A program made the position numbers and the translations under genes. 64,000 nt of DNA from Nostoc sp. UHCC 0702 (GTDB lineage Bacteria; Cyanobacteriota; Cyanobacteriia; Cyanobacteriales; Nostocaceae). The notes under the pieces are model-generated. The model saw only the letters and a program-made list of their open reading frames with translations, made no database searches and had not been told where the DNA came from. Shown here piece by piece: positions 57,458 through 62,607 of this stretch. The stretch spans positions 1 to 64,000 of the forward strand of contig CP071065.1 of NCBI GenBank assembly GCA_017164015.1, read 5' to 3'. The first letter of the stretch is position 1. The number at the start of each line of letters is the position of its first letter.

Positions 57458-57805
57458 ACCGTATTGGCCTATATTGTGGCTCAAGCTTTTGGTTGGAATT
57501 GGGGTGAAAATCTGAAACCAAAAGATGCTGCACGCTTTAGTTTGGTTTACACTGTGTTTGTCTTTCTTTCTTCGTTACTAATAGTATTTGGTGTAGATCC
57601 TTTGCAATTAACATTATTTTCAATGGCGATTACAGCAGTGATTTTGCCGCCTGTAGTTGTGCCATTTTTAGTGTTAATGAACGATAAATTATATGTTGGT
57701 AAATATACCAACGGCTGGATTAGTAATAGCATTGTCATCTTTACTCTTGTACTAGCGTTTGTCCTGGCAATTGTTGCTATTCCTCTGGAAATTATTGGAG
57801 GATGA
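57458..57805 (+). pseudogene. 3' fragment of an Nramp-family Mn/Fe transporter
   Basis: The open frame encodes only the last ~113 residues of a divalent-metal transporter that is normally over 400 residues. It reads LAYIVAQAFGWNWGENLKPKDAARFSLVY, two hydrophobic helices (VFVFLSSLLIVFGVDP, FSMAITAVILPPVVVPFLVLMND), YTNGWISNSIVIFTLVLAFVL and the end IPLEIIGG. This matches the last membrane helices of Nramp proteins. The metal-binding DPGN helix is gone, so it cannot transport. The break lies at the repeat mosaic just upstream. Codons are still intact, implying a recent loss. Confidence 0.7.
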
Positions 57806-58446: not shown

Positions 58447-58603
58447 TAGCTCAGTGCGGTTTAAATCGCTGATATTAGAGCAAATTCGACTTGCACCGAC
58501 TATCTACGGAACTTTTTTTAAATTTTCAGAAAATACCATAATTTCTCCGCTTAGTTACCCAATTCGTCATAAATATATAGAAAGTTTCTGCATTAAGAGG
58601 TCT

Positions 58604-58814
58604 AGGACTTACGCACTCGTAACGAAAAACGGCGTTGCTGAATCAGAGTATGAAATGCCAAAATTACATTTATTTTTCTTTGTAGCTTTGCGCCTTTGCG
58701 TCTTTGCGTGAGACATATTCATACTTTCAATCAGCAACGCCCGAAAAACTAAGCTTTTGCAATTACTTTGCTAAGCTCGTAATGACCTAAAATCGTAGAC
58801 CGTGCGTAAGTTCT
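58604..58814. repeat. AGGACTTACGCAC element interrupted by a nested MITE
   Basis: Ends AGGACTTACGCAC (58604-58616) and GTGCGTAAGTTCT (58802-58814). Removing the nested insertion and one target copy leaves 92 bp, matching the intact 93-bp element at 37566-37658 in inverted orientation (shared GCAAAAGCTTAGTTTTTC and CTACGATTTTA). A further GCGCGTAAGTCCTGAATT end lies near 58938, and a GC-rich module at 58857-58892. Confidence 0.7.
58631..58741. mobile_element. MITE with perfect 8-bp target duplication
   Basis: A 111-bp insertion with inverted ends GGCGTTGCTGAATCAGAG / complement GGCGTTGCTGATTGAAAG, and no coding capacity. The direct repeat CGAAAAAC stands on both sides (58623-58630 and 58742-58749). 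The site without insertion is visible in the related element at 37566-37658. Degraded relatives lie at 39856-39958 and 36041. Confidence 0.85.
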
Positions 58815-59004
58815 GAGTCCATTTATAAAGTAAAAATAAAATTACTCTAGGGAAGCTACTGCGCGATCGCCCTCTGCTGACAGCCTTTGCATGTAGGGTT
58901 GTTTCTCCTATGAGCAATAGAAGTCATATGATAATGCGCGTAAGTCCTGAATTAAAAGGACTCAGCTTGTTTTAAGCTAATAAAAAAATCGTGGGTATAA
59001 ATTG

Positions 59005-61383
59005 ATGGCAACTGTAGAATTAGAAAAAAAGGTCATGACTGAAGAAGAAGTGACCAAGCTGTGGGAAGCGTTCAAAGTATTTGATGCGGACGGTAGCGGT
59101 GCCATCTCAGCAAAAGAATTGGGGGAAGTGATGCGATCGCTAGGGCAAAGTCCCAGCGACATCGGACTGCGCGACATGATCAAAGAAGTGGATGTTGACT
59201 TATCAGGCAGTATTGATTTTGAGGAATTCAAAACCCTGATGGTGTCAGCACAAGGCGATCGCCAAAGCCGTCTGAAGTTGGCATTTAGCGTGTTTGATGA
59301 AGATGGTAGCGGTCAGATTACCACAAACGAACTGCACAGTGTTATGACTCTGTTTGGGCTAACGGACACAGAACTCGACGATCTCATTAAAGAGGTCGAT
59401 CACGATGGCGATGGTTCAATAGACTTGCAAGAGTTTATGAAACTAGTTCCACCAGAGTCAGAAATAACCAGCGGCTATAAAGATTCACCCATTTCTTTTA
59501 CCAGTTCCCCTGAAAATAATCCAGCGCTGGTTACTGCAAACGACGCACCCATATCATCAACCAGTGTATCTCCCACACAGGAAACACAGGGCGATAATCT
59601 AGAAGTGGTACAACTCAAAGAACTGCTCGCGCAACACCCACAAGAGCAAAAAGAACGTGCCACCTCCCGACTGCAAATGCAGATTGGTTTGTTTCGCCTG
59701 ATCCAAGGAGCTGCCTACCGTTGCTTCCGCGAGAGTTTCTCTGCCAATCACGAAACCCACCTGCGCGTGAGGAAACTGCCCTACAAAATTACAGACTTTG
59801 TGCAGTTTGTCCAAAAAGCGATCGCATTATACAAAGGTTTAGATATCGTAGAAAAAGCTTGCTACCACCTGTTAGATGCGATCGTTGAATCAATCGAACA
59901 AGAGTATGCCAGACTCCAAGACCGTATCCAGAACTGGAAGAGCATCCAAAAAACACCTGAAATGTTAGCTGAAGAAAAAGCAATGGAGTTAGCACGCCGT
60001 AAATCCATCTCTGTCAAGGAGAAGTTTGCAGCGGGTGTAGAGTTCGCCATTACTATCAAGAAAAAACATTTCAGCTTTCGTGACATTGCAGCAGGCGTGC
60101 TAGCAATCAACGAACTCAACCGTCTCAGGCGGATGGAACTGAATGCAGAACTTACTCCCCCTCCCCCAAAATCACCAGGCGATCCCAAAGATTACCTCAA
60201 GCAGTGGAACCGCATTATTCTTGCCGATGCTTCAGAAGAAATAGACGGTGCAATGATGCCAGTAGCCTATTGGTATGAAGATTTCATGCCGAAGTTGCTA
60301 GCTGCTTTCAGTGTCAACACTGCCGCTGACTTGGAAAACAACACCATACCTGACGAAGCAGCTTTGGCTCAGTGGTATGAAGATACTAAAACAGTGGGAG
60401 AATTTGACCGCTATGGGGCAGATGTGGCAGAGAACTTTTCTAAATGCACTCCCAAACAAAAATTGGCAATTAAGCAGGCATGGCGTTTGACGCATCATTA
60501 TCTCAATGGCGTGCAAAAACGGCGTGAACGCCAAGAGTTTGGGCGCGAGTCAGGGGCACTTTCGCAATACGTGGCATTCATTGATGTGTATTTGGGACGC
60601 AGTGATATTAAAGATGCCCAGATGCGCCTGAGCTTTCCTTATTACATTGGGCCCGCTGTGTGGCGTTTCTTCCACACCACGGCTGAAATCGTATGTAATA
60701 AGCCATACAAAGAGCAAAAAGCGCTCGTGGCAGTTTTCCAAGACTTCTTTAAACTATTTGCCACGATGTACCCCTGCCCTTACTGCCGTCACCACCTGAA
60801 TATGTATGTGGTGCAGAACAAAGAGGTCGATATGTACCCAGTAGAGTATCTTTTGCTGGGACGCGACCCGCAACTGAACAATTTTGAGGTATCGATGGAG
60901 GCCAAGCTGTCTACAGTTGTAGATGGCCCCGCCTTACGCTTATTTTTCTGGAAACTACATAACACCGTTTCCTCATCCATTGCCCGCTCCGAGGAATGGT
61001 ATCACAAAGATGAGAAAGCTTTTTACACTACCCGCTATTGGCCCAGTCTGGACTCCGAACTCGCACGAAGCAAAGCGCTCAAACACCTCAGCATCTCCAT
61101 CGAGCGATTATACCGCCTCTATGGAATTCTTAAACCGACATCGCGGTTGGCAGGAGTCAGAGCAACTCTGCAAAAGCTCTTGCAGAAAGGCGATGAGTTA
61201 GGTATCAAAGAGGCGTGTACCCTAGCCGAAGTTTATATCAAAGAGTTGGAATCATCTGTGAACGACGGGCAATTTCTTCAGGAAGCCTACCGCTTTGACC
61301 CTGAAATTGTAGATAAAAACCCCTACTTTTCTCCTGAAGAGGAAGAGTTTGCTCGCAGTGGCGTATTTGTAGAAGTCATATAA
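59005..61383 (+). CDS. Calmodulin-like EF-hand protein fused to an Erv/ALR sulfhydryl oxidase domain
   Basis: A soluble protein of 792 residues. Residues 15-147 form four canonical EF hands spaced as in calmodulin, with loops D27-E38, D63-E74, D98-E109 and D132-E143. A Ser/Thr/Pro-rich linker (to ~195) leads to a helical middle region (~200-320, RLQMQIGLFRLIQGAAYRCF). The C-terminal part (~550-700) resembles Erv/ALR FAD-linked thiol oxidases: VWRFFHTTAEI, the redox pair C591-P-Y-C594 (YPCPYCRHH) and KLHNTV at 651-655. No signal peptide is seen, so the place of oxidation is unclear. ATG 59005 is chosen over TTG 59002. Calcium control of disulfide formation is inferred from the fusion. Confidence 0.85.
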   Translation: MATVELEKKVMTEEEVTKLWEAFKVFDADGSGAISAKELGEVMRSLGQSPSDIGLRDMIKEVDVDLSGSIDFEEFKTLMVSAQGDRQSRLKLAFSVFDEDGSGQITTNELHSVMTLFGLTDTELDDLIKEVDHDGDGSIDLQEFMKLVPPESEITSGYKDSPISFTSSPENNPALVTANDAPISSTSVSPTQETQGDNLEVVQLKELLAQHPQEQKERATSRLQMQIGLFRLIQGAAYRCFRESFSANHETHLRVRKLPYKITDFVQFVQKAIALYKGLDIVEKACYHLLDAIVESIEQEYARLQDRIQNWKSIQKTPEMLAEEKAMELARRKSISVKEKFAAGVEFAITIKKKHFSFRDIAAGVLAINELNRLRRMELNAELTPPPPKSPGDPKDYLKQWNRIILADASEEIDGAMMPVAYWYEDFMPKLLAAFSVNTAADLENNTIPDEAALAQWYEDTKTVGEFDRYGADVAENFSKCTPKQKLAIKQAWRLTHHYLNGVQKRRERQEFGRESGALSQYVAFIDVYLGRSDIKDAQMRLSFPYYIGPAVWRFFHTTAEIVCNKPYKEQKALVAVFQDFFKLFATMYPCPYCRHHLNMYVVQNKEVDMYPVEYLLLGRDPQLNNFEVSMEAKLSTVVDGPALRLFFWKLHNTVSSSIARSEEWYHKDEKAFYTTRYWPSLDSELARSKALKHLSISIERLYRLYGILKPTSRLAGVRATLQKLLQKGDELGIKEACTLAEVYIKELESSVNDGQFLQEAYRFDPEIVDKNPYFSPEEEEFARSGVFVEVI

Positions 61384-61659: not shown

Positions 61660-62607
61660 TTGCTTAAAGATATACGAGATTATCAAATTCTGTTTCTGGG
61701 CTTGTTTCTAGTCTTGGGAATTGCTACAAGGGACTGGACGCTACGACCGGAGTTGATTGGTGTAGCGATCGCCACTTGTTTAGCAACACAATGGATACTG
61801 TCATTTGTGATTAGTCATTGGTCATTAGTTACTGGTACTGAACAAAAGACAAATGACACAGCACACATGAGGAATCTTCGTAGTGCTTTGATTACCTCAT
61901 TGGGACTGAGCTTGCTTTTGCGAGCTGACCACTGGCCGACAATGGCTTTAGCAGCAACAAGTGCGATCGCTAGTAAATTTCTTTTCCAAGTCGGTGATAA
62001 GCATTTTTTCAATCCTGCTAATTTTGGTATTATTTTTGCCTTATTGCTAGCGCCCGATGCTTGGGTTTCTCCCGGACAGTGGGGTGAACAATGGTGGTAC
62101 GGGCTGTTATTTGCTGGCACTGGTGGCATGATTTTGCAACGGATTGGTCGCTGGGACACCACAGCAGCTTTTTTAGGTGCATACTCCTTGCTGGAAGCAA
62201 TTCGTAATCTTTGGCTGGGTTGGACTTGGGATGTTTACTGGCATCGGTTGATGAGCGGTTCTTTGCTGCTGTTTGCCTTATTTATGATCACCGATCCCCG
62301 GTCAATTCCCAACGCTCGAATTGCGCGTGTAATTTGGGCAGTGTGCATCGCCATCTTGACTTTTATTCTGAGGAATTATTTCTTTATTTCCACCGCAGTT
62401 TTCTGGGCATTGTTCGCCCTTGCACCATTGACCATCCTGTTAGATGTTCTCTGGTCAGCCCCGCGATTTTCTTGGTTAGGGGGTGGGGAGATGGGGAGCA
62501 GGGGAGCAGGGGAGATGGGGAGCAGGGGAGATGGGGAGCAGAGGAGATGGGGAGCAGGGGAGCAGGGGAGCAGGGGGGATGAGGGAGAAATAAAAACTGA
62601 TTACTAA
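61660..62607 (+). CDS. Stand-alone RnfD/NqrB-like membrane protein
   Basis: A 315-residue protein with about eight hydrophobic helices. It resembles subunit D of Rnf and B of Nqr, which bind covalent [48 protein letters not shown] and [16 protein letters not shown] are the conserved stretches, and [19 protein letters not shown] ends the core. The other Rnf/Nqr subunits are absent. The start is TTG 61660 with AAGGGG upstream. Residues ~50-68 ([19 protein letters not shown]) look repeat-derived, and the last ~40 residues ([20 protein letters not shown] onward) certainly are. It is followed by a DUF2330 gene, with which it probably works. Confidence 0.82.

Follow-up and report, generated by a model that had tools for sequence, protein, structure and literature searches.

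A calmodulin-like EF-hand quartet and an Erv/ALR domain on one cyanobacterial chain: a candidate calcium-switched thiol oxidase

Can a calcium sensor and a sulfhydryl oxidase share a single bacterial polypeptide, and would the one then control the other? The question is raised by a gene at positions 59005..61383 (+ strand, as are all parts of the protein given below) of the window, by which we mean the whole stretch of 64,000 nucleotides analysed here, positions 1 to 64,000 of contig CP071065.1 of Nostoc sp. UHCC 0702. The reading frame goes from an ATG at 59005 to a stop at 61381-61383 (the program used to find open reading frames placed the start at a TTG, 3 bases upstream of this ATG), and encodes 792 residues that comprise an EF-hand quartet, a helical middle domain, an Erv/ALR domain and C-terminal helices. 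The quartet and the Erv/ALR domain are joined on one chain, and we predict, with a probability of about one half, that the product is a cytosolic thiol oxidase dependent on flavin adenine dinucleotide (FAD) and switched on by Ca2+.

Residues 11-150 make up a calmodulin-like quartet (Pfam EF-hand_7, 3.3e-29), and the best 60 of its 501 matches among solved chains were calmodulins and calmodulin hybrids at about 130 bits, 2n6a scoring 132.8 bits over residues 13-159. All four loops, namely residues 27-38 (DADGSGAISAKE, 59083..59118), 63-74 (DVDLSGSIDFEE, 59191..59226), 98-109 (DEDGSGQITTNE, 59296..59331) and 132-143 (DHDGDGSIDLQE, 59398..59433), are canonical Ca2+-binding loops, which by sequence defines the domain as calmodulin-like. 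A strict loop pattern, which asks for Gly at position 6, has 4 hits in the protein, whereas 2000 shuffles gave 0.0025 hits on average and never more than 1. The preliminary description of this locus had announced four loops spaced as in calmodulin, and so they are, except that, by the alignment gaps, loops 2 and 3 lie two residues closer together, and so do loops 3 and 4. Its further statement that calmodulin-like quartets are rare in bacteria stands only in part, since the same genome holds a frame of 182 residues with two EF-hand pairs (G000:C1:7310428-7310892, L092/L094), which is perhaps a free calmodulin-like quartet. Another frame of this genome (G000:C1:7736126-7736341, L091), of 699 residues, begins by eye like a phosphoglycerate mutase, shows membrane helices and ends in EF-hands; considered as a possible NOX5, it looked otherwise by eye, no family scan having been run on it. 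Likewise rejected was the XopAW-type EF-hand effector family (NCBIfam NF041410) as a label for our protein, with 72.8 bits over residues 22-214 against a cut-off of 120.

The Erv/ALR domain (residues ~547-665, 60643..60999) comes 448 residues after the last EF loop, close to the 450 given in the preliminary description, and PF04777 (Evr1_Alr) scores there 40.7 bits over residues 551-607, above its cut-off of 27.6. The predicted active-site motif C591-P-Y-C594 (60775..60786) and the LHN motif, L651-H652-N653 (H652-N653 at 60958..60963), are located where that description had put them, and they are preceded by W553-x3-H557 (60661..60675). These six residues (W553, H557, C591, C594, H652 and N653) are invariant in 58/58 rows of alignment A4 and in 118/118 non-redundant rows, obtained by collapsing 194 rows at 95% identity; we take W553, H557, H652 and N653 to have a role with FAD. 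Moreover, PF04777 is found at E <= 0.01 in 48/48 aligned members and above cut-off in all four small-genome relatives. The match of the query stops short of HN because 57 residues separate C594 from H652, and in three of these four relatives the profile match extends past HN (profile 2-82 of 93; 113 residues on 81 positions). The Erv/ALR family is defined by a shared fold, cofactor binding and active-site cysteines (PMC3509050; here and below, papers are cited for the portions of their text available to us).

Is the sensor kept as strictly as the enzyme? The coordinating residues of all four loops are present in 102/118 rows, and when Gly is required at position 6, four loops are counted in 41/194 rows and three in 111/194. 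Among 169 database proteins, four canonical loops were found in 139, three in 6, two in 13 and one in 9; the last 2, which score no loop, are frames without the EF region, so that the other 167 have at least one. An EF-less form of the protein (P0081, P0089) was considered and rejected, as by eye both resemble cut or mis-started frames. In the 20 rows (out of 48 new ones) nearest to a Salaquimonas member used as a further query, one canonical loop occurs in 8 and two in 12, and the loops kept are, by eye, of the EF3/EF4 type, loops 3 and 4 being the best kept in distant relatives. At least one loop is present in five of six proteobacterial loci, and none in L069, which ends at a contig end. 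In small-genome cyanobacteria the quartet is mostly degenerate: the one loop that still fits is EF3 in L002 and L003 and EF4 in L015, while L013 has none, and these four loci (with longer copies L084-L087) retain the oxidase signature and have lost most EF loops. Judged by the loop counts across rows and relatives, the sensor is kept less strictly than the catalytic signature, and its C-lobe persists longer than its N-lobe. A basic helix (residues 499-514, YLNGVQKRRERQEFGR, 60499..60546), itself strongly conserved, was also considered as a calmodulin-docking site, and dropped because EF-poor relatives with degenerate EF-hands retain it.

Such counts would suit an Erv-type oxidase in which the EF-hands serve structure or targeting, are always loaded with Ca2+ and gate nothing: the signature is invariant in 118/118 rows versus 102/118 for the four loops, and some small-genome cyanobacteria retain the enzyme with degenerate EF-hands. 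We regard this ungated enzyme as a serious but unlikely alternative, because fully coordinating loops are found over two phyla and are joined to the rest by a variable linker (residues 151-197, 59455..59595), unconserved and with a predicted local distance difference test (pLDDT) below 50, as often occurs in sensor lobes, an arrangement that favours gating and is not proof of it.

Where would a calcium-switched oxidase work, and what would feed it? Of the cysteines, C591 and C594 alone occur in all rows; C286 is found in 114/118 and C481 in 105/118, and both are absent from L002, L003 and L013, which carry one other cysteine from the EF-hands onward. A second redox pair, typical of cellular Erv enzymes and not defining of the family, is not conserved throughout the 118 rows, so that no intrachain shuttle disulfide would be obligatory. 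Neither a signal peptide nor a membrane helix is evident by hydropathy alone (Kyte-Doolittle, most hydrophobic 19-mer 1.18, peak in the first 40 residues 0.33), in agreement with the preliminary description, which had found this odd for a disulfide-forming enzyme; we take the missing signal peptide for a hint that the protein acts in the cytosol, not for a defect. No evident signal peptide and no second pair kept throughout therefore lead us to predict an oxidase that works in the cytosol and is supplied with electrons by a dithiol outside its own chain. VKOR-type systems are the usual exported disulfide pathway, and a separate VKOR frame, with a thioredoxin part by eye, is found in the same genome.

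The middle domain (residues 205-530, 59617..60594) is strongly conserved and, as had been anticipated, could be assigned to no recognised family: no Pfam family lies above cut-off, no solved relative was found among PDB sequences (best match E 0.79), and in the structure model it gives weak helical matches only. With the full-length model as the query, the best 50 rows of each search against the PDB were calmodulins and calmodulin constructs. The C-terminal helices (residues 682-784, 61048..61356) are conserved in part across the family. The middle domain bears on another alternative, that the main product is H2O2 rather than disulfides and the protein a thiol-driven analogue of NOX5/DUOX making a Ca2+-triggered peroxide signal. 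Such an enzyme would share the logic of NOX5, an EF-hand oxidase found in cyanobacteria (PMC7317449), and a shuttle disulfide that would serve protein clients is not kept throughout; a middle domain so large and so conserved suggests instead a specific client or partner, and we hold the peroxide signal to be improbable.

The assignment to the Erv fold itself can also be questioned, since the CPYCRHH motif might have a structural part or bind metal, in a helical bundle of Erv type that has lost FAD and oxidase function. A CxxC followed by His-His could bind metal, and Foldseek gave no significant match to any Erv structure. Sequence comparisons point the other way. With the Erv region alone, the nine best solved chains found by phmmer were sulfhydryl oxidases (best 2.3e-4; 13 of the 15 at E <= 10), and a 19-row profile retrieved Erv1, Erv2, ALR and viral oxidases as the best 13 of 15 solved chains (best 1.9e-6). 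In these phmmer and profile alignments the motif coincides with the CxxC of solved Erv proteins, the W and H align on Erv1 and Erv2, and a His after CxxC is carried by Erv1p and Erv2 too; as HN is moreover invariant in every one of the 118 rows, a mere metal site seems very improbable.

How widespread is this architecture? A search with residues 160-793 retrieved at least 589 proteins, and among the best 120, PF04777 was found in 120/120 and EF-hand families in 118/120; the search from the Salaquimonas member gave 597 proteins, with the nearest named relative from Ruegeria. In the sampled cyanobacterial genomes PF04777 occurs in 15/386, and all 15 cases are this EF-hand/Erv protein (that of G161 only in part). 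Within the order, 43 of 389 genomes match, with 37 intact frames, two non-intact copies spread over contigs (G905, one piece of it with a stop, and G988) and remnants in G161, G914, G119 and G370, each either a piece with stops or a very short one. The genus has one other genome, which lacks the protein, and in the class of Salaquimonas only the Salaquimonas genome itself matches (1/385). The same domain order was thus found in other cyanobacteria, and also in some Pseudomonadota. The suggested link to heterocysts, on the contrary, is not supported: the gene is present in Microcoleus, Oscillatoria, Tychonema, Lyngbya and proteobacteria, none of which, to our knowledge, forms heterocysts. PF04777 has already been catalogued in Nostocales, Oscillatoriophycideae, Rhizobiales and Rhodobacterales (PMC10598087), and some members of the family are named thiol oxidase or ERV1/ALR-related in the databases; the Erv domain in these groups is not new, and what we describe is a conserved family rather than an odd fusion. 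A chance or recent functionless gene fusion, which the patchy occurrence, the remnants and the absence from the genus's other genome might evoke, is next to discarded by at least 589 matching proteins, the same order in two phyla and the invariant signature residues.

The placement of the sequences in a 45-row tree, together with the patchy occurrence, suggests sideways transfer and repeated loss of the gene. Three proteobacterial loci (L069, L076 and L077, metagenome bins for which mis-binning is possible) fall within a branch of six cyanobacteria (100/99). Four small-genome cyanobacteria of family f25 (G251, G285, G318 and G336; 2.3-3.0 Mb), probably picocyanobacteria, sit on their own long branch outside the main cyanobacterial branch (both 100/100), in a tree whose root is not fixed and where this long branch may be misplaced. 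Among plasmids one record was found, in Gemmobacter aquarius (39% over 91%); this copy (L088) lies beside genes for glycogen debranching, a DJ-1/PfpI protein and a sugar-phosphate nucleotidyltransferase, all on the same strand. Phages gave no family match, and of 51 pattern stretches found in viral contigs with a 58-row alignment, none was confirmed. By structure models alone, the model of residues 201-792 resembles a Yasminevirus protein, A0A5K0UAY3 (Foldseek E 3.3e-18, TMq 0.59, 748 columns, 20% identity), which differs in its 1140 residues and a root-mean-square deviation of 14.3. Its histidine kinase label was probably copied from cyanobacterial members labelled alike (P0005, P0010), and nothing on this protein was found among the Yasminevirus papers listed. 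If the kinship is real, the unit formed by the middle and Erv domains extends beyond bacteria.

As for the genes around, frames of at least 90 residues from 69 stretches (67 family loci, L088 and the window) were clustered. The family itself aside, a promiscuous kinase group formed the largest cluster, with 20 stretches, and no further group exceeded 10; clusters 1-13, read for position in search of a conserved partner gene, resemble lineage synteny, and we name no partner. In the window, an NQR2/RnfD-like frame (61660-62607) and a DUF2330 protein (from 62761, 247 bits, running past the window end) follow downstream on the same strand. On the other side, a frame of 113 residues (57464-57805) matches the Nramp transporter family in its final portion only (profile 278-356 of 357) and is possibly a decayed remnant. 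At 58603-58816 there is a small repeat with 24-nt inverted ends (58631-58741), apparently nested in another short element; a 241-base stretch at this place has at least 59 matches in the genome, its own place counted, and the two halves of the outer element are found joined elsewhere with an 8-base overlap (7889551-7889580, 7889573-7889647) that looks like a target-site duplication.

How might the switch of a calcium-gated oxidase work? By analogy with the C-lobe of NOX5, and given the best-kept EF3 and EF4, we propose that Ca2+ would chiefly fill these two loops, and that the loaded C-lobe would dock on the middle/Erv part across the flexible linker of ~50 residues, exposing the C591-C594 disulfide beside FAD. 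In human NOX5, the C-lobe binds the dehydrogenase domain of cyanobacterial NOX5 (PMC7317449). Electrons would be taken directly from a dithiol on another molecule (at a guess, that of a thioredoxin-type protein or of its targets) and leave via FAD to O2, giving H2O2. The protein could in this way counterbalance thioredoxin by oxidation while Ca2+ transients last, for example in the light-to-dark signal of Anabaena; a dark-induced Ca2+ signal has been reported there (PMC4915528, citing Torrecilla 2004b), and an oxidising switch that is thrown at nightfall would fit it. Some observations weigh against this reading. The EF-poor members, the Gemmobacter plasmid copy included, show that four sensors are not indispensable to the enzyme; the 69 stretches have no conserved partner gene close by; and the full-length model is of low confidence (pLDDT 66.7, predicted template modelling score 0.60), for which reason we make no claim on lobe packing. 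The wider picture, of a calcium-gated sulfhydryl oxidase family in which an Erv enzyme, cytosolic in photosynthetic bacteria, is switched on by a calmodulin lobe and a Ca2+ pulse, such as that of nightfall, so writes disulfides on thioredoxin targets, a family that would mirror calredoxin, have passed sideways from phylum to phylum and share its fold with a giant virus, is offered as a tentative one that we would not yet bet on.

If the calcium-switched oxidase is real, it would place an Erv-type disulfide maker in the reducing cytosol of bacteria and might find use as a disulfide catalyst that Ca2+ turns on and off. How cyanobacteria convert a Ca2+ transient into a response is poorly understood, and a link from Ca2+ to thiol oxidation in one chain would offer a directly testable enzyme for this question. 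As the preliminary description had supposed, no Ca2+-gated sulfhydryl oxidase, and no EF-hand/Erv fusion described as a Ca2+-linked enzyme, was found in the literature searched, which left subscription papers largely outside. According to a 2020 paper, no Ca2+ sensor of Anabaena other than CSE (asr1131) was known (PMC7065334); also a cyanobacterial EF-hand sensor, CSE is small, with two putative EF-hands, and is described there without an enzyme domain. With the Erv1/Erv2/ALR oxidases (PF04777; mimivirus R596, PDB 3td7) our protein shares the Pfam match, W-x3-H, CxxC and HN, and it adds the EF-hand quartet and a middle domain of ~330 residues in front, C-terminal helices and an insertion between CxxC and HN, with no evident export signal. 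Unlike most cellular Erv enzymes, and like many viral ones (PMC3509050), it keeps no shuttle disulfide throughout. NOX5, from Cylindrospermum stagnale as well as human, likewise joins in one chain a calmodulin-like EF domain and an O2-reducing oxidase (a predicted one in our case), and its acting lobe is the C-lobe (PMC7317449), the lobe of EF3 and EF4, best kept here; unlike NOX5, our protein has no NADPH oxidase family listed and no membrane helix by hydropathy, with thiols as the predicted donor. The last parallel is calredoxin of Chlamydomonas, in which four EF-hands are fused to a Ca2+-controlled thiol-disulfide enzyme (PMC4911631). The Pfam scan of our protein gave no thioredoxin family, and whereas the thioredoxin of calredoxin reduces peroxiredoxin, the Erv domain found here is predicted to oxidise.
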